Shown: positions 35,192 to 61,766 of the stretch, in pieces
Layout: each line of letters opens with the position of its first letter
How positions within the stretch are numbered: the first letter of the stretch is position 1
Assembly (NCBI GenBank): GCA_029262065.1
Contig: JAJDAC010000016.1
Coordinates: forward strand, 1-64,000
Length of the DNA stretch: 64,000 nt
Direction: 5' to 3'
DNA from: Candidatus Krumholzibacteriota bacterium
Lineage (GTDB): Bacteria; Krumholzibacteriota; Krumholzibacteriia; JAJRXK01
Program-made: the position numbers and the translations under genes
Notes under the pieces: generated by a model
Told to the model about the DNA's origin: nothing
The model's input: only the letters and a program-made list of their open reading frames with translations
Databases searched by the model: none

Positions 35192-35538
35192 GCGGCACGG
35201 TGTGTCGGCTGATCGAAGCCTATCGGCGGGAGCTGGACCTGTACGACCAGGTTCTGGCGCTCGCCAAGGAAGCGATGGACGTGGTTCGCGATGGTCGATC
35301 GCTGGCTGATCTCCACGCGGTGAATCAGAAGAAGAAGGAGCGGCTGGATGAGGTTGCGGGCATCGAGGTCGAGATTGCCCGTGACAAGGAAACCTGGAGG
35401 CGCGGCGTTCGTCTGGACGAACCCAACGCCCAGCTCGACGCGCTGCTGGCCGAACTCAGCCGGCGTATCGAGCAGATTCTGCGAGTGGAAGAAGAAACCG
35501 ATTCCTGGATCCTGCGCACCAGTGTGCAGGTGTCCTGA
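35188..35538 (+). CDS. FlgN/FliT-like small helical chaperone (second copy)
   Basis: A 116-residue all-helical protein. CRLIEAYRRELDLYDQVLALAKEAM resembles the opening helix of the FlgN-like protein encoded at 19400 (EAETDLYDRLLSLAERQ). A Lys/Glu-rich coiled coil (NQKKKERLDEVAGIEVEI) follows. Start is TTG at 35188, 8 bases after GGGAGG and overlapping the previous stop (TTGA). An export-chaperone role is inferred, and its cargo is unknown. Confidence 0.62.
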   Translation: MSGTVCRLIEAYRRELDLYDQVLALAKEAMDVVRDGRSLADLHAVNQKKKERLDEVAGIEVEIARDKETWRRGVRLDEPNAQLDALLAELSRRIEQILRVEEETDSWILRTSVQVS

Positions 35539-35551
35539 GAGGAAACCAACT

Positions 35552-36258
35552 TTGGTACAGACGCATCCCATGCCCGACACGGTCGCAAGCCCAGAGTCAC
35601 AAACGATTCAGGATTGGGGTCGTGCCTTTCATCGCAGCCGCAACCTGATCATGTCCATGAGGGGTTACGCCGAACTCATCCAGTGTTCTGAGAGCCGGGG
35701 CGAACGACACGGCGAATGGGCCGAGAAGATCGTCTCCCAGCTCGACCGCCTGAACGATCTGCATTGCGTGGCCGAACGTCTTCTGGTCGACGTTTCGCCG
35801 CGAACCGAACTACTACCCGTGGCGTTGTTGCTGCGATCGGCCGACCGGCTGGTTCGTCAGCGTGCCCACGGTTCCTTCCGGATACCCGCACGCTTCGATC
35901 TGCGCGACGAGGCATGGGTACGAGGCCACGGGCCGGACCTGATCGAGGCTCTGGCCGCGGTACTGGAAAACGCCTTCGAAGCGTCACCTGATGACGCGCA
36001 AGTCGAAGTGTCCCTGGATGGAGTTGGTCGCTCCTGGCGAGTGACCATTTCCGATCAGGGGTCGGGCTTCGAGCCCGGAACCGAGGCCCGCGTTGGCGAG
36101 GCCTTCTTCAGCCGCAAGGCGGGTCACGCGGGCCTGGGACTGTTCCTGGGGCACACCCTACTTCGGCGTCACGGTTGTGAACTCGAATTTACGTCCAACC
36201 CAAACGGGGGAACGCATGCCGTGATTTCTTCCAACGGGGATCTTTCAGGAGGAAACCA

Positions 36259-36262
<4 letters not shown>
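35552..36262 (+). CDS. Flagellar sensor kinase, FleS/FlrB-like, with degenerate H box
   Basis: A 236-residue short soluble kinase. The dimerisation helix reads AFHRSRNLIMSMRGYAELI, keeping the candidate phospho-His but with Arg instead of the usual Glu/Asp after it. The ATPase part has ENAFEASPDDAQV (N box), ISDQGSGFEPG and RKAGHAGLGLFLGHTLL. It directly precedes (ATGA overlap) an NtrC-type regulator, as FleS-FleR or FlrB-FlrC do. Start is TTG at 35552 after AGAGGAAA; ATG at 35570 is an alternative. Confidence 0.82.
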
Positions 36263-37632
<1,370 letters not shown>

Positions 37633-38968: not shown

Positions 38969-40459
38969 ATGGATTCGATGCAAGTCATCCTGGAGCGCTG
39001 GCGGGAAATATGGTCGCGCTTCTCTTTCAATCAGAAAGCCATTCTGGCCATTGTGCTGGGGGCTTCGATGCTCAGCCTGGTGATCTTCACCGCTTGGCTG
39101 CGAAGCGATTCGATGGTGGTCCTGTATAGCAACCTGGGCCCCGAACAGGCTACTTCAGCCATGGAAATGGTGAGCCAGCAGGGAATCAAGCTGGAAATGC
39201 GAAACGGCGGAAGCACGCTGCTGGTTCCCAGTCAGGATGTGGATCGGCTTCGTATGGAGCTGGCCGTGGAGGGCATTGGTGGCGATGGCCTGCGCGGCTG
39301 GGATCTCTTCGACGAACGCGCCATGGGAGAAACCGAGTTTGGCTTGAACGTGCGTCTCAAGCGCGCCCTGGAAGGCGAGTTGGCGCGCAGCATCGGGTCG
39401 ATCGATCGCGTTTCGGGGGCCCGTGTCCACATTACGATGCCCAAGGACAGTGTGTTCCTGCGCGAACGCCACGCACCCACGGCGTCGGTCCTGTTGTCGC
39501 TGCAAGGGCGCGGGGTGCCCTCGCGCGAGCAGATCGAGGGCGTGCAGAACCTGGTGGCGAGCGCTATCGAGCAGATGACGCCGGACAACGTTTCGGTCAT
39601 CGATGCGGGGTCGGGACGCGTTCTGAGTGGCGGGTCGTCACAGGATTCCGTGGGCATGAGCAGTTCGCAGCTGCGCGTGCGCAAGGAAGTCGAGGACTAC
39701 CTGGCGGGCAAGGCCTCGGACATGCTGACCGACATGCTGGGACGTGGCCGCTACGTGGTTCGGGTGAACGCGGATCTGGACTTCGAACAATTGGAGCGCA
39801 GTAGCAAGACCTTTGATCCGCAAACCGTCGTACGTAGTGAGGAGACGAAGGAAACCACCGGCGACGGAGCGGGCGACAGTTCGGTGGCCACCACCAACTA
39901 CGAAGTGCCCAGTACCGTTGAGAACGTGCTGCGTAACGGTAGCATTCTGAACAAGCTGAGCGTCGCCGTGGCCGTCGACGGAAAGTACGCGCAGGCCGAC
40001 GGAGCAGGCGAGCCGGTCTACGAGGCGCGTACCGCCGAAGAGCTTCAACAGATCCAGCGCATCGTGTCGGGCGCAATCGGTCTGGACGACACCCGCGGCG
40101 ACACGATCGAGGTGGTCTCCACCCAGTTTGATCCCGCGGTACCCTACGAACCGTCGATTCTGGAAAATCCGTGGCTGCACGAGCTACCCCAGATGATCGG
40201 CAAGATCCTACTGTTCCTGGTCGCCGTGATCCTGGTCCTGAGCCTGCGCAAGAGCATCTCGAACATCCTCGTCGACGCCAGCCGGCCCGTGCCCGTGGCG
40301 ACGCGAGGCGCCATGGGCGCCGCGGCGGTCGGCGGTGCGACCATGGCTTCCGGAGCGGGATCGACTCAGGAAGCTTCGGAGATCGAGGACTGGGCGCGCC
40401 AGAGTCCGGAAGAAGTGGCCAGCCTCATTCGTTCGTTCGCAACGCAGGAAGATCAGTAG
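38969..40459 (+). CDS. fliF: Flagellar MS-ring protein FliF
   Basis: A 496-residue inner-membrane ring protein. TM1 (AILAIVLGASMLSLVIFTAWL) is near residue 20-45, with the periplasmic YscJ-like domain after it (VLYSNLGPEQATSAMEMV, DRVSGARVHITMPKDSVF). TM2 (KILLFLVAVILVLSL) is near residue 412. The C-terminal FliG-binding tail ends IEDWARQSPEEVASLIRSF. Slightly shorter than the roughly 550-residue enterobacterial form. Confidence 0.97.
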   Translation: MDSMQVILERWREIWSRFSFNQKAILAIVLGASMLSLVIFTAWLRSDSMVVLYSNLGPEQATSAMEMVSQQGIKLEMRNGGSTLLVPSQDVDRLRMELAVEGIGGDGLRGWDLFDERAMGETEFGLNVRLKRALEGELARSIGSIDRVSGARVHITMPKDSVFLRERHAPTASVLLSLQGRGVPSREQIEGVQNLVASAIEQMTPDNVSVIDAGSGRVLSGGSSQDSVGMSSSQLRVRKEVEDYLAGKASDMLTDMLGRGRYVVRVNADLDFEQLERSSKTFDPQTVVRSEETKETTGDGAGDSSVATTNYEVPSTVENVLRNGSILNKLSVAVAVDGKYAQADGAGEPVYEARTAEELQQIQRIVSGAIGLDDTRGDTIEVVSTQFDPAVPYEPSILENPWLHELPQMIGKILLFLVAVILVLSLRKSISNILVDASRPVPVATRGAMGAAAVGGATMASGAGSTQEASEIEDWARQSPEEVASLIRSFATQEDQ

Positions 40460-40462
40460 ACG

Positions 40463-41461
40463 ATGGAAACTCCGTCCATCCGCAAGGCAGCGATCATTCT
40501 CATCGCGCTGGGCCCACGGGTGAGCGGTGAGATACTCAAGCGCCTCCCCGAGCAGCTCGTGGAACGGCTCACGGCCGAAATTGCCACCATGAAGAAAGTG
40601 GACTCGACCGAGAAGAACGCGGTGTTCCAGGACCTGTTCGAGTACCGGATCCTGGCCGATGGCTACGCGCGCGGCGGCGAAGATTTCGCCAAGGAGATGC
40701 TCGAGCAGGCGGTCGGCAAGCATCGCGCGGCAAAGCTGATGAGCCAAGCGACCGGATTCGGCGAGGACACAAATTTCGAAATGCTGAAGAAAGCCGATCC
40801 GTTGATGGTGGCCAACTTCCTGAAAGTGGAGTTGCCACAGACCACGGCGCTCGTCCTGGCGCATATGGATCCTCGGCACGCCGGACCCATCCTCTCGCTG
40901 TTGCCAAGTTCGATGCAGGCCGAAGTCTCCTACAAGATGGCCATACTCGAGAAACCCCGGCCCGACTTCGTGCGCCTGGTGGAAGAGACCCTGGGCAAGC
41001 AGATCAAGGGAGACTACGAACGTTCGGGCAAGCAGTACGGTGGCAAGAAACAGGTAGCTGAGCTGCTGAACGAGATCGAGCAAGAGGTCTGGACCGAGAT
41101 TCTTGACGAGATGCGCGAACTCAATGAGGAAACCGCGGTCGATGTGAAGAACCTGATGTTCGTGTTCGAAGACATCATGACGCTCGAGGTGCGCTACGTG
41201 CAGGAGTTCCTGAAGGAAATCGACAGCAAGGAGCTGACGATGGCGCTCAAGGCCGCAAGCGCCGAAGTGAAAGAAAAGATATTCGACAACATGTCCAAGC
41301 GTGCCGCCGCGGGCATCCAGGAGGACATGGACTACATGGGCCCCGTGCGCCTGGCGGACGTGGAGGAAGCCCAACAGCGGGTAGTCGATGTGATTCGCCG
41401 CCTCGAAGAGGAAGGCACCATCGTGCTCGGCGGCGGCAAGTCGGGTGACGTCATTGTCTAG
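40463..41461 (+). CDS. fliG: Flagellar motor switch protein FliG
   Basis: A 332-residue rotor protein: IRKAAIILIALGPRVSGEILKRLPE, then the middle domain (ALVLAHMDPRHAGPILSLLP, the EHPQ-region equivalent) and the C-terminal torque domain with charged helix (VQEFLKEIDSKELTMALKAA, FDNMSKRAAAGIQEDMDYMGPVR). It binds FliF and FliM and meets MotA. Three bases separate it from fliF. Confidence 0.97.
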   Translation: METPSIRKAAIILIALGPRVSGEILKRLPEQLVERLTAEIATMKKVDSTEKNAVFQDLFEYRILADGYARGGEDFAKEMLEQAVGKHRAAKLMSQATGFGEDTNFEMLKKADPLMVANFLKVELPQTTALVLAHMDPRHAGPILSLLPSSMQAEVSYKMAILEKPRPDFVRLVEETLGKQIKGDYERSGKQYGGKKQVAELLNEIEQEVWTEILDEMRELNEETAVDVKNLMFVFEDIMTLEVRYVQEFLKEIDSKELTMALKAASAEVKEKIFDNMSKRAAAGIQEDMDYMGPVRLADVEEAQQRVVDVIRRLEEEGTIVLGGGKSGDVIV

Positions 41462-56729: not shown

Positions 56730-58865
56730 ATGGCCGCCGTTCGCGAAGATCTATCGGGTGACCTGGTACTGGCCAACAGCAACGTCATGGCCGCGGTGGG
56801 TATGGTGGCCATCCTGGGACTCATGGTCATTCCCGTGCCCACGGCCATGCTCGACATTCTGCTTACGTTCAACATCGCCATGGCCATGGTGGTCATGTTG
56901 GTCACCATCTACCTGCAGCGTCCACTCGACTTTTCGGTGTTTCCGTCGCTGCTGCTCATTGCCACGCTCTTTCGCCTTTCCTTGAACGTCGCCAGTACGC
57001 GACTGATCCTGAGTCAGGGTGACGCGGGACGCGTGATCGAGGCGTTTGGTGAGTTCGTGGTCGGCGGTAACACGATCATCGGGATCATTGTGTTCGTGAT
57101 CCTCGTGGTTGTGCAGTTCATGGTGATCACCAAAGGATCAGGTCGCATCGCTGAAGTCGCCGCGCGTTTCACGTTGGACGCGATGCCCGGCAAGCAAATG
57201 GCGATCGATGCCGACCTGAACAGCGGTCTCATTACCGAAGACGATGCTCGGACGCGTCGTGTCGAGATCGCTCGCGAGGCGGAGTTCTACGGCGCCATGG
57301 ACGGTGCGAGCAAATTCGTGCGGGGCGACGCCATTGCCGGAATCATGATCACCGTCGTGAACATTCTCGGCGGGCTGGTCATTGGTACCTTCCAACGGGG
57401 CATGCCCCTGGCCGAGAGCGCGCGCACCTACACGCTGCTTACGGTGGGCGACGGACTCGTCAGTCAGATCCCGGCGCTGCTGGTGAGCACGGCCGCCGGC
57501 ATGGTCGTGACCCGGTCGAGCAACGGTGTGAATCTGGGATACGATCTGGCTTCGCAGCTCATGCGAGATCATCGGGCATTGCTGGCGAGCTCCGGCGCTC
57601 TGTTCCTGGTGGCGGCCGTTCCGGGTCTGCCGACGATTCCGTTCCTGGTCCTGGGCATCGTCATTGGCCTGGCGGGACTGCAGGCGAAGGGCCGCAAGGC
57701 CAAGGAGCGCGAGCAGGAGCTGGCCGAGGTCGAGGAAGTGGCCGCGGACGAAGAGGTCGAGGACAACTCGGTTGATGACATATTCGTGGTCGACCGACTC
57801 GAGCTGGAAATCGGCTACGGTCTCATTCCGCTGGTGGATGCCACGCGCGGCGGGGATCTGCTCACGCGCATCACCAACGTTCGTCACAAGACCGGTGCGG
57901 AGCTGGGCGTGCGCGTAGCACCGATCCGAATTCGGGACAATCTGCAGCTGGATAGCGTCGAGTACGCCGTCAACTTGCGAGGCGTGGAAATCTCCCGCTT
58001 TCGCCTGGAATTGGACCGTCTGCTGGCCATGAAAGTTCGCGACGGTGGCACCGATGTTCCCGGCATGGACACGATCGAGCCGGCGTTCAACCTACCCGCG
58101 CGGTGGATTCGCCCCGACGACCGGGCCGCCGCCGAAATGGCCGGGTACACCGTGGTGGAACCGAGCGCCGTTGTCGCCACTCACCTGTCCGAGGTCATCA
58201 AGTCGCACGCCGACGAGATCCTGACCCGCCAGGATGTCCAGGAGATGCTCGATGGGTTGAAACGCCACGCGCCGGCCCTGGTCAACGAGGTGTTTCCCGA
58301 CAAGGTCTCGTTGACCACGTTGCAAGGCGTGTTGCAGGGACTGCTACACGAGCGCGTTTCGGTGCGCGATATGGTGACCATCCTGGAGACCCTGGCCGCC
58401 GCCGGCGGCGAAGTCAACGTGGACAAGTTGGTCGAGCGCGTGCGCCTTGCGCTGGCTCGGTCGCTGTCGCACATGCACGCCGATGAGAATCGGACCGTAT
58501 GGGCGCTGACGGTGCATCCCGAAACCGAGCAGGCGTTGTATCTGGCCTTCCACGAATCCGAGCGCAGTGGAAACGTGGTTATGGATCCGGGATTCGCGGA
58601 ACGTTTTGTGGCCCGCCTCGGTGCGGGCGTCGATGAAATCGTAAAGAAGGGGCGTTCGCCACTGATCGTGGTAAGCAGCCCAATCAGACTCTTCACCCGT
58701 CGTCTGTTGGAAGCTTCTTTTCCGACGGTTGGGGTGTTGGGCTACACGGAGATCGCACCGGGCTATCAGGTGCGATCCATGGGGACGGTGATTGCACATG
58801 GAAACGCAACCCAGGCCGCCGCGGCGGGACACAACGGCCAGCACGCGAGTCATTCGCGGGTCTAG
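56730..58865 (+). CDS. flhA: Flagellar export gate protein FlhA
   Basis: A 711-residue protein with eight hydrophobic segments in the first roughly 330 residues (family motifs LFRLSLNVASTRLIL, RFTLDAMPGKQMAIDADLNSGLI, VRGDAIAGIMITVVNI). The cytoplasmic nonameric-ring domain follows, with an acidic linker (EVEEVAADEEVED) at about 330-345. FliI/FliJ and chaperones dock to it. The length is typical. The flhF start lies inside its 3' end. Confidence 0.97.
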   Translation: MAAVREDLSGDLVLANSNVMAAVGMVAILGLMVIPVPTAMLDILLTFNIAMAMVVMLVTIYLQRPLDFSVFPSLLLIATLFRLSLNVASTRLILSQGDAGRVIEAFGEFVVGGNTIIGIIVFVILVVVQFMVITKGSGRIAEVAARFTLDAMPGKQMAIDADLNSGLITEDDARTRRVEIAREAEFYGAMDGASKFVRGDAIAGIMITVVNILGGLVIGTFQRGMPLAESARTYTLLTVGDGLVSQIPALLVSTAAGMVVTRSSNGVNLGYDLASQLMRDHRALLASSGALFLVAAVPGLPTIPFLVLGIVIGLAGLQAKGRKAKEREQELAEVEEVAADEEVEDNSVDDIFVVDRLELEIGYGLIPLVDATRGGDLLTRITNVRHKTGAELGVRVAPIRIRDNLQLDSVEYAVNLRGVEISRFRLELDRLLAMKVRDGGTDVPGMDTIEPAFNLPARWIRPDDRAAAEMAGYTVVEPSAVVATHLSEVIKSHADEILTRQDVQEMLDGLKRHAPALVNEVFPDKVSLTTLQGVLQGLLHERVSVRDMVTILETLAAAGGEVNVDKLVERVRLALARSLSHMHADENRTVWALTVHPETEQALYLAFHESERSGNVVMDPGFAERFVARLGAGVDEIVKKGRSPLIVVSSPIRLFTRRLLEASFPTVGVLGYTEIAPGYQVRSMGTVIAHGNATQAAAAGHNGQHASHSRV

Positions 58866-59940
58866 TCTGGCTGAGGCGCTAGCACGTGTTCGCCTGCAAT
58901 ACGGTGAAGACGCGTTGGTGGTGGAAACGCGCGAGGTGGAAGCCGCCGAGGGTTCGGCCATGGCTCCGCGCCGCGAGTTCGAGGTGGTGGTGATCGAAGC
59001 CGATGGCCCCATCGAGGCGTCGGACGAATCGGTGGCCGAGCCCGATGAGGGAGCGAGTCACTTGCGACGACAGCTGGCGCGGCTCGAGCGTCTGATCCAC
59101 GACGTGGAATCGGTGGCCGTGAACGTGCGCGATTTCAACCTGGCCGGCGAGGAATATCCCTTGGCCGAAGCGTTGATCGACGCGGGCTGCTCGATTACAA
59201 CGGTGCGTCAATTGGCGACGGGCTTCGCCATGGCCAGCGCCAAGGGCCCGCGCAACTTCACGTCGGCCGTGCGGCACCTGCACGCGGTGCTACGTACGAC
59301 GAGTGCAACGCATTGGTCGCATGTGCGCGGCGAACACTGGTTCTACGGGCGAGCTGGCGTCGGCCGAACGACGATGGTGCTGCATCTGGCCGCCACGCTG
59401 CGCCGAGAAGGCATGCATCCCGCCATCATCTGTGTGGGGCCACGGCACGAGGGTGATCTGCAGCGGATCCAGTCGGCCGCGAAGGCCCTGGATGTTTCTG
59501 CCGCCGCCGTGTTCGAAGAGGACGACCTTGACCAGGCCCGGCAGCATTTTGCCGACCGCGACGTCGTCCTGGTCGACACGCCGTGTTTCCTGACCTATCG
59601 GCCGCCTTCGGTGCGGCGGGCGTCGGCTCGCCGGCACCTGGTGGTTCCCTTGGCCGAGGACCCGGTGTTGCTCAGGGAGTGTCTGGGGTCGCAGGGTGAC
59701 TGGCGTCCCGACACGATGGCCATCACCCAGATCGATATCTGCCCCCGACCGGGGCACCTGCTCGACCTGGTGCGCGAAATCGGGGCTCCGTTGTCGTTCC
59801 TGCAGCGATTCGAGGGGGGGCTGGCCCAGGTGGAGCTGGCCGATTCCGAGCGGCTGGTCGGGGGCATCTTCCGACCAGAACCGGGATTGGCCCCGACGAC
59901 CGCAAGCGCGGCCCCTGAAGCCATGGCGGCGCAGGGCTGA
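58792..59940 (+). CDS. flhF: FlhF-like SRP-GTPase family protein with altered P-loop
   Basis: A 382-residue protein placed right after flhA, as FlhF usually is. The N-terminus (STRVIRGSSLAEALARVRLQYGEDALVVETR) is the FlhF B-domain signature. The GTPase domain is present but eroded: the P-loop reads GRAGVGRTT (186-194) with Arg192 where Lys is invariant, and the G3 motif is VLVDTPC instead of DTAG. FlhF sets flagellar number and polar placement. Nucleotide hydrolysis here is doubtful. Start TTG 58792 (GGGGA 6 bases upstream) or ATG 58798; it overlaps flhA by about 70 bases. Confidence 0.85.
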   Translation: MHMETQPRPPRRDTTASTRVIRGSSLAEALARVRLQYGEDALVVETREVEAAEGSAMAPRREFEVVVIEADGPIEASDESVAEPDEGASHLRRQLARLERLIHDVESVAVNVRDFNLAGEEYPLAEALIDAGCSITTVRQLATGFAMASAKGPRNFTSAVRHLHAVLRTTSATHWSHVRGEHWFYGRAGVGRTTMVLHLAATLRREGMHPAIICVGPRHEGDLQRIQSAAKALDVSAAAVFEEDDLDQARQHFADRDVVLVDTPCFLTYRPPSVRRASARRHLVVPLAEDPVLLRECLGSQGDWRPDTMAITQIDICPRPGHLLDLVREIGAPLSFLQRFEGGLAQVELADSERLVGGIFRPEPGLAPTTASAAPEAMAAQG

Positions 59941-59945
59941 TCGCC

Positions 59946-60200
59946 ATGTTGCAACGCGTAGTGCGCCTGTTTGCCACCGGAGCCGCCCTGGCCGCGGTCC
60001 TTCTGGGATTGCACGCCGGGTGGGATTTCTGGACCGTCGCCAAACGGTCGGTGGCCAGCTATTTCGTGATCTTCGCCGTGGGTGGGGGGCTGGCCGCATT
60101 GGGACGATTAGCCGTGTTGACCGACGACGCGAAATCAACGACCGCCACCGGAAGTGCCTCGGAACAATCCGGGACCGATGGCACAAATACTGCAGTTTGA
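59946..60200 (+). CDS. Small two-TM membrane protein in the flhF-fliA gap
   Basis: An 84-residue protein with two hydrophobic segments (about 8-22, FATGAALAAVLLGL; about 38-57, ASYFVIFAVGGGLAALGRLAV) and a Ser/Thr/Gly-rich tail. I recognise no family. It occupies the place where flhG (fleN) usually lies, between flhF and fliA, but has no ATPase motif. A role in the membrane base or polar placement is only a guess. It starts 5 bases after flhF. Confidence 0.65.
   Translation: MLQRVVRLFATGAALAAVLLGLHAGWDFWTVAKRSVASYFVIFAVGGGLAALGRLAVLTDDAKSTTATGSASEQSGTDGTNTAV
60179..60193 (+). promoter_or_regulatory. Sigma-54-like promoter for fliA
   Basis: TGGCAC-AAATA-CTGC has a perfect -24 box and the essential GC at correct spacing, with one mismatch (C for T) in the -12. 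It overlaps the end of the small membrane-protein gene, and the predicted start near 60205 is 34 bases before the fliA ATG. Confidence 0.55.
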
Positions 60201-60238: not shown

Positions 60239-61063
60239 ATGGACCGAGCATCGACACCAGTGGAACCGCTGTGGATTGCCTTCAAGGAGCGCCACGAAGA
60301 AGACGCACGCCGTCGTCTCGTGGAGAACTACGTCGGCCTCGTCAAGTACGTGGCCGGGCGCATGGCGGTGGGTCTTCCGCACTACCTGGAGTTCACCGAC
60401 CTCTACAGCGCGGGCCTGGTGGGATTGATTCAGGCCGTTGACCATTTCGACCACCAGCGCGGTATCAAATTCGAAACCTACGCGGTACCGCGCATTCGTG
60501 GGTCGATCCTCGATGAGCTGCGCGCCCAGGATTGGTTTCCGCGCAGTCTGCGTCGCAAGGCCCGTCAACTCGAAGAGGCCTACGCCGTGCTCGAGATGAA
60601 ACTGGGTCGTCCCGTATCGGACGAAGAAATTGCCGCGGAGCTCGACATCAGCGTGAAAGATTTTGACCGTTGGGTTGGGGAAGTGGCCGTGGCCACGATC
60701 GTCTCGCTCGATAGTGAGGGCGACGATACCGGTGGAACGCCGATGGTCGACACCTTGGCCGACCCCAATCACGTGGTGGCCGACGAAGCCGTCGCCGACG
60801 GCGAAATGCGCCAGGCGGTAGTGGAGGTCCTGGCTGACCTTCCCGAAAAGGATCGCCTGGTACTGACGCTCTACTACTACGAAGAACTGACTCTGCGGGA
60901 AATCGGCGAGGTTCTCGAGGTTACTGAATCCCGGGTGTGCCAGATCCACACCAAGGCGATTCTTCGGCTGCGCGGCAAGCTGCACCGCAAGTTGAATCAG
61001 AAGCCAATCGCTCGGTTGGGAGCGGAAGTCGCGGCAGCGATGAAGCAGAAGGTGCAAGTCTAG
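60239..61063 (+). CDS. fliA: Flagellar sigma factor FliA (sigma-28)
   Basis: A 274-residue sigma-28: region 2 (LVENYVGLVKYVAGRMAVGLPHYLEFTDLYSAGLVGLIQAVDHFD, then GIKFETYAVPRIRGSILDELRAQDWFPRSLRRKARQLEEAY, a FliA hallmark), region 3, and region 4 (LPEKDRLVLTLYYYEELTLREIGEVLEVTESRVCQIHTKAILRLR). It drives the late genes, such as the flagellin promoter in this window, and is held by FlgM. Confidence 0.97.
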   Translation: MDRASTPVEPLWIAFKERHEEDARRRLVENYVGLVKYVAGRMAVGLPHYLEFTDLYSAGLVGLIQAVDHFDHQRGIKFETYAVPRIRGSILDELRAQDWFPRSLRRKARQLEEAYAVLEMKLGRPVSDEEIAAELDISVKDFDRWVGEVAVATIVSLDSEGDDTGGTPMVDTLADPNHVVADEAVADGEMRQAVVEVLADLPEKDRLVLTLYYYEELTLREIGEVLEVTESRVCQIHTKAILRLRGKLHRKLNQKPIARLGAEVAAAMKQKVQV

Positions 61064-61077
61064 GGAGCGGTTGAGCC

Positions 61078-61353
61078 ATGGCAGACGGAATCAGCATTTT
61101 GACCAATGTGACCCAGGTCGTCTCGGCGTCCAAGGTTCAGCAGGGTCAGCAACCGGCGGCCGAGGCGCAGGATCAGGCAAACAAGGCGGAGCGTGGCCAG
61201 GAAACCGATGCCAAGGCCATGTCGCAGGTGAAGGAAACGGAAGAGACCAGCGTGCAGGCGCGGCGAGACGAAGCACGTCGCCGCCGGCAGAAGAAGAAGA
61301 AGCGGAAGAGGAAAGCCCAGGAGGGCCGCTCTTCCATCGACATCAAAGCGTGA
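61078..61353 (+). CDS. Small highly charged protein of unknown function, next to fliA
   Basis: A 91-residue hydrophilic protein. It begins MADGISILTNVTQVVSASKVQQ, is Gln/Glu/Ala-rich in the middle, and ends in a strongly basic cluster (EARRRRQKKKKRKRKAQ) with a short tail. No family is recognised. The first 25 residues look like a short amphipathic element and the rest is probably disordered or coiled. GGAGCGG precedes the ATG; it lies 14 bases after fliA and 20 bases before another unknown gene. Confidence 0.65.
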   Translation: MADGISILTNVTQVVSASKVQQGQQPAAEAQDQANKAERGQETDAKAMSQVKETEETSVQARRDEARRRRQKKKKRKRKAQEGRSSIDIKA

Positions 61354-61373: not shown

Positions 61374-61766
61374 GTGATCAGCTGGATTCCACATGAACTG
61401 TTGCCCGTGCTCGGAGCGCTGTTGTTCGTATTGGGTCTGGGTACGTTGATCGTCACCGCGGTTTCGGTACTGCGTGGTCAAAGAGTCGTCGAGCACTGGG
61501 ACGGCGTGGACATCACGATCGATGACCTGGTGCCGGCCGTGCAGCCGCCCGTGATCGAAGAGGTATTTGCCCGGGGAGAACTCGGGGAGCTGGCCCAGGG
61601 ACTCGACGCGCTCGAGGCCCGCCTGGGATCCATGCGACGTGGAGTGCAGACCCTCATGCACGGACGCCGTTCGCCTGTGAGAGCCGTACCACCGCGCGTG
61701 GACATGGTGGCGGCAGGCATGTTGGGAGAGAGGGAATCGTTGCGGCAGGTGCTCCGACGCACCTGA
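61374..61766 (+). CDS. Single-pass membrane protein of unknown function
   Basis: A 130-residue protein with one N-terminal TM helix (about residues 9-33, LPVLGALLFVLGLGTLIVTAVSVL) and a cytoplasmic-type helical tail with Leu/Glu/Arg heptads (GELGELAQGLDALEARLGSM). GTG start. It sits between fliA's small neighbour and two HDOD genes. No homologue is recognised; a motor or polar-organiser role is possible but only positional. Confidence 0.65.
   Translation: MISWIPHELLPVLGALLFVLGLGTLIVTAVSVLRGQRVVEHWDGVDITIDDLVPAVQPPVIEEVFARGELGELAQGLDALEARLGSMRRGVQTLMHGRRSPVRAVPPRVDMVAAGMLGERESLRQVLRRT

Follow-up and report, generated by a model that had tools for sequence, protein, structure and literature searches.

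FlhF normally places flagella, using GTP. Its GTPase is stimulated by an enhancer helix of FlhG, which returns the FlhF dimer to the monomer (PMC12826062). Other work, summarized in PMC12713375, indicates that GTP binding favors the contact of FlhF with FliG, that the contact with HubP is GTP independent, and that GTPase activity is dispensable for flagellar position in some species. FlgV, a two-TM protein that forms a ring at the MS/C-ring junction, is encoded between flhG and fliA (PMC10655999). Its Type-1 form, which is marked by an Arg in TM2 and exemplified by BB0268 of Borrelia, occurs in many phyla, among which the text of the paper defining the types does not name Krumholzibacteriota (PMC11607428). 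Here, we describe a flagellar locus of Krumholzibacteriota in which flhF has a degenerate GTPase site, flhG is absent, and a FlgV-like gene directly follows flhF.

A divergent FlhF in a flagellar gene cluster

The window, that is, the whole stretch of 64,000 nucleotides analyzed here, belongs to one contig of a 5.77-Mb draft genome that is 95.6% complete. Its flagellar cluster begins with a two-component pair (positions 35348–37629), fliF (38969–40459, + strand), a FliG-like ORF (40463–41461, + strand), fliH, fliI, fliK, flgD, and flgE, and continues with motA, motB, fliL, fliM, fliN, flhB, flhA, flhF, a small ORF, and fliA. The products of fliF and of the FliG-like ORF, the latter called from its translation and place without a family search, are the expected early partners of FlhF. 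The export gate gene flhA (56730–58865, + strand; FHIPEP, E = 1e−258) overlaps the annotated start of flhF (58792–59940, + strand), whose product has 382 amino acids when read from the TTG at 58792; the ATG at 58798 is the likelier start. No flhG lies directly 3′ of flhF. The small ORF (59946–60200, + strand) starts 5 bases past the flhF stop and ends 38 bases ahead of the sigma-28 gene fliA (60239–61063, + strand; identified by family search). This order, with an 84-residue two-TM protein and not FlhG between flhF and fliA, agrees with the preliminary description of the locus.

The flhF product, recognized from its ORF, family matches, and predicted fold, is a divergent homolog of the SRP-type GTPases. 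It matched TIGR03499 with an E-value of 8e−19 and 68.7 bits, far below the equivalog cut-off of 174 (NCBIfam), and matched Pfam SRP54 with 29.1 bits, above the cut-off of that family. Its AlphaFold model (mean pLDDT 84.8) has an SRP-type NG fold, for which the best PDB match was FlhF of S. putrefaciens (8r9r; TM-score 0.77 by target length); the FlhF structures 2px0 and 2px3 and other SRP GTPases were also among the matches of the fold search. The window FlhF resembles these known FlhF proteins in the flhA-flhF gene order, the N-terminal B region motif, the NG fold, and the single copy per genome. In contrast to them, it has not kept the G1 Lys, G2 DTxR, G3 DTxG, G4 TKxDE, or G5, has no FlhG partner, and scores well short of the FlhF equivalog. 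FlhF relatives were present in 50 of 98 genomes chosen around the window. None of the 80 genomes of the phylum encoded an FlhF above the TIGR03499 cut-off or a canonical FlhF, and no second, canonical FlhF was found in the window genome. Homology to FlhF is clear, whereas functional equivalence is not.

Order of decay of the GTPase site

A canonical FlhF combines G1 GxTGxGKT, including its Lys, with G2 DTxR and G3 DTxG. When the window FlhF was aligned, its P-loop (G1) read GRAGVGRTT (residues 186–194; 59347–59373, + strand) within the stretch H-W-F-Y-G-R-A-G-V-G-R-T-T, with Arg192 (codon CGA, 59365–59367, + strand) in the position of the Lys. The G2 region is CVGPRHEGD (59431–59457, + strand), where Gly216 and His219 replace the canonical Asp and Arg; G3 is DTPC (residues 262–265; 59575–59586, + strand), with Cys for the canonical Gly; and G4 is TQID (59725–59736, + strand) against the canonical TKxD. 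The Arg in the P-loop and the DTPC motif, both pointed out earlier, can thus be read directly in the window. Turning a Lys codon into CGA takes two base changes, so that one miscalled base cannot explain Arg192.

We compared the phylum FlhF sequences, of which 48 could be read at residue 192, with 70 FlhF sequences of other phyla, two genomes of which had been fetched twice. Residue 192 was Lys in 70/70 outside the phylum; within it, Arg occurred in 23 sequences, a count that takes in some members without a P-loop whose alignment still places Arg in this column, and Lys in 20, Gln in 2, Thr in 2, and Ser in 1. Nearly all of the Arg codons (22/23) were CGN, mostly two changes from AAR. Outside the phylum, the G2 Asp (position 216), the Glu following G4, and the G5-region Gly were invariant (100% each), and the G3 Gly (position 265) and G4 Lys were conserved at 99% and 96%, respectively, whereas the G2 Asp and Arg, the G3 Gly, the Glu after G4, and the G5-region Gly were lost throughout the phylum. 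Its P-loop glycines were conserved at 87%–96% and the G3 and G4 Asp residues at 84%–87%. Six members (L024, L025, L172, L173, L174, and L184) had no recognizable P-loop; examples of sequences from which it has vanished are FLGPRSADSFEL, FLAEHAAERLGL, and FLGFDRHARQEL. The phylum also has conserved FlhF positions of its own, namely G180 and H182 (100%), P217 (96%), and H282 (98%).

When a tree was computed after removal of the P-loop columns, the phylum FlhF sequences formed a single clade (SH-aLRT 100), within which at least four changes between Lys and non-Lys at residue 192 are required, the inner order being tentative owing to the quick method and the long branches. The Arg of the window is private to its own lineage: the closest relatives, L009 and L010 of the same family, keep Lys, indicating that the window Arg arose separately. 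Lys-bearing relatives already lack the G2 Asp and Arg and the G3 Gly, so that the active site was broken before the Lys was lost. Arg192, to which the preliminary description had given the central place, is certainly present; judged from the alignment and the tree, it is one late step of a phylum-wide decay.

That every G motif, and the P-loop itself, was lost step by step would suit a functionless relic that is decaying like a pseudogene. We find that explanation hardly credible, since almost every flagellated genome of the phylum has flhF as an intact, full-length ORF, and the new phylum-specific positions are conserved. Furthermore, pairwise dN/dS was 0.09–0.46, with pairs lacking the P-loop included and some synonymous distances near saturation, indicating that flhF is maintained by purifying selection.

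Absence of FlhG and the small gene behind flhF

A profile was built from FlhG proteins with the DQAxxLR motif encoded at canonical FlhF loci. FlhG proteins adjoining most FlhF genes elsewhere scored about 220–370 bits with it; in the window genome the best score was 59.6 bits, and neither FlhG nor a MinD-like ATPase with DQAxxLR was found there. The seven CbiA-family proteins of this genome are ParA-like (four), Mrp/ApbC, a tyrosine autokinase, and Ffh, that is, members of other families, which rules them out as an FlhG encoded elsewhere. Across the 80 phylum genomes, no FlhG was found in 79, and apart from a single strong but doubtful match they scored at most 90 bits, the range of ParA-like proteins. 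Since 49 of these 80 genomes encode FlhA, those with flagella as a rule have no FlhG. The predicted pairing of a lost GTPase function with a lost FlhG, first suggested from the window, is supported on the scale of the phylum. The strong match (L119 in G076, 298 bits) is fused behind a DnaJ-like N-terminus, lacks DQAxxLR, and neighbors PEP-CTERM and NtrC-type or response-regulator genes in a metagenome-assembled genome with 7% contamination; it is probably a contaminant contig or a nonflagellar relative. No match to DUF2802/FipA, a candidate partner, occurred in the phylum or in the control genomes.

These are draft genomes of uncultured organisms, and the 95.6% complete window assembly would alone be no proof that FlhG is absent, although 79 of 80 phylum genomes agree. 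That flhG is present but missing from the assemblies, or that the Arg is a sequencing error, has a close to negligible probability: tens of genomes have flhF next to the small gene on an unbroken contig, with no gap for flhG, and Arg occupies residue 192 in 23 genomes with, in the window, a codon two changes away from Lys.

Among 68 genomes of other phyla, FlhG adjoined flhF in 59 and was encoded elsewhere in 3 (G370, G148, and G289); 2 had an ATPase-dead homolog (G271 and G129), 3 had none (G234, G367, and G107), and 1 was unclear (G276). The dead homologs belong to a family outside the phylum, f58, in which the FlhG/FleN/YlxH slot, empty in Krumholzibacteriota, is still occupied directly behind flhF (L214, 1976–2966, − strand; L226, 2202–3099, − strand). 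The P-loop of these homologs is now GLPSGCGCS or GLPAGLGAS, and DQAxxLR is missing; a FlgV-like two-TM protein comes after them, and the FlhF retains Lys and DTPG. The f58 locus, a possible INTERMEDIATE, could be a picture of a step toward flhG loss; on the FlhF tree, f58 is not sister to Krumholzibacteriota. FlhF with no FlhG found in the genome occurs in this phylum and in at least three other lineages, L207 (G234), L222 (G367, with G229), and L227 (G107, with G254). These three keep the P-loop Lys, indicating that losing FlhG is not by itself enough to bring about decay. In L207, a small two-TM protein is encoded between flhF and fliA.

The small ORF of the window had no family match above cut-off. 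Its product has two hydrophobic helices (2–23 and 28–63 in a model with a mean pLDDT of only 72) and a low-confidence tail, and a fold search with this model gave no match. A small two-TM ORF lies directly 3′ of flhF in 46 of 50 Krumholzibacteriota loci examined, and in family f3 it stays behind flhF even though fliA is not adjacent. In the window, as in most of the phylum, the ORF occupies the slot that separates the FlhF/FlhG module from the sigma-28 one. A basic residue marks TM2 in nearly all of these 46 proteins (Arg 35, Lys 10, Gln 1), and the conserved basic residue of the window protein, Arg34, begins TM2. Many members have an Asp or Glu in the TM1–TM2 loop (GWDFW, QDWG), at an uncertain position. 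Canonical flhF-flhG-(small two-TM)-fliA loci were found in other phyla, and the Krumholzibacteriota profile matched the ORF right after flhG in G201 (1.9e−7) and G338 (1e−4). In hhalign, the family matched a set of 17 small two-TM proteins encoded behind flhG (or flhF) in other phyla with a probability of 97.2% (E = 2.9e−11), against 2%–3% for reversed controls.

By family features and position, the small protein fits a Type-1-like FlgV. It shares with Type-1 FlgV (BB0268) the two TM helices, the basic TM2 residue, a polar tail, and the slot before the sigma-28 module; it differs in that the module has no flhG. The short, conserved, hydrophobic C-terminal peptide of Type-1 FlgV, which includes a basic residue, was not obvious by eye in the window protein, whose tail ends in TDGTNTAV. 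Type-2 FlgV of Campylobacter and Helicobacter (PMC10655999) likewise has two TM helices and the slot before fliA, but its GFFxG motif is missing here. A direct profile match to two GFFxG (Campylobacterota-type) FlgV sequences was not significant (1.5%). Because the FlgV slot normally lies between flhG and fliA, flhG would have dropped out in front of the small gene, without any move of the latter into its place.

The preliminary description had the small protein take the place of FlhG, and its nearly constant position right behind flhF in flagellated phylum genomes, f3 included, would agree with a functional replacement that regulates FlhF. Such a role is very unlikely: proteins of this kind occur side by side with an intact FlhG in other phyla, 84 residues with two helices and a polar tail hold neither an ATPase domain nor DQAxxLR, and the protein fits FlgV, which is a basal-body ring protein (PMC11607428, PMC10655999).

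A possible scaffold role for FlhF

We propose, with a probability of about 0.6, that flhG was lost and that FlhF, encoded next to FlgV, serves the early assembly of the basal body as a pseudo-GTPase scaffold. In the flagellated Krumholzibacteriota, an ancestral block flhA-flhF-flhG-flgV-fliA would have become flhA-flhF-flgV-fliA. With FlhG gone, hydrolysis would have been free of FlhG control and its residues could drift: the G2 Asp and Arg and the G3 Gly would have been lost first, in every lineage, and the P-loop Lys later, several times separately, with disappearance of the P-loop as the end point in some genera. The N-terminal B region and the NG fold of FlhF have been retained, whereas GTP hydrolysis would have been lost. 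As a nucleotide-independent or at most GTP-binding scaffold, it would recruit or stabilize FliF and FliG at the membrane, and FlgV, its neighbor, would have the same site of action as in Helicobacter and Borrelia, the MS/C-ring junction. The simplest account of the sequences is that FlhF continues to deliver the earliest components of the basal body to the membrane but has given up switching, with whatever effect this may have on flagellar number and position. Gene order, the loss of motifs, the absence of FlhG, purifying selection, and the FlgV-like features are read from the sequences; the lack of hydrolysis, the scaffold, and any consequence for flagellar number or position are inferences drawn from them. 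A literature search found no Krumholzibacteriota isolate or flagellar micrograph.

Another explanation is that FlhF is still a slow GTP-binding switch. In that case, GTP would be held by Arg192 (by Lys in relatives), FlhF would form its homodimer, and a factor different from FlhG, such as concentration, FliG, or FlgV, would drive turnover. Since Lys is present in 20 of 48 sequences and most keep the Gly-x-x-Gly-x-Gly pattern and the G3 and G4 Asp residues, nucleotide binding may survive in many members, and Arg, the commonest replacement of the Lys, could keep a phosphate contact. We nevertheless consider a slow switch unlikely, because the G2, G3, post-G4, and G5-region residues are lost throughout and purifying selection on the gene persists even in several genera from which the P-loop has vanished altogether. 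The scaffold reading can be extended to a nucleotide-free FlhF across the whole phylum, which after FlhG loss would use a surface of its own (G180, H182, P217, and H282) to place or license flagella with FlgV; this extension is tentative, and we rate it just short of an even chance. If it is true, the FlhF/FlhG switch can come apart with FlhF retained.

Lys-bearing, Arg-bearing, and P-loop-less FlhF proteins, all without FlhG, stand on one tree and therefore form a natural series for asking which FlhF task needs GTP, a matter in which species differ. The small protein, for its part, would extend FlgV to a phylum that the paper defining the types does not name.

Several minor observations were made on neighboring and related genes. 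Two further loci, L185 (G008) and L186 (G004), lie in genomes that lack FlhA; each encodes an FlhF-like protein carrying Lys and DTPC, and these genes adjoin NtrC-type regulator genes, not flagellar genes. In the window, 3′ of fliA, positions 61078–61353 encode a small charged protein without a family match, which is possibly a small protein of the sigma-28 module; its C-terminus, (I/L/V)D(I/L)(K/R/H)(A/V), is shared with proteins of L070, L072, L074, L075, L083, L085, L173, and L177. It is followed by a 130-aa protein (61374–61766) with one N-terminal TM and no family match, a candidate for the “TM+HTH” protein that has been reported from the vicinity of sigma-28 (PMC11607428).
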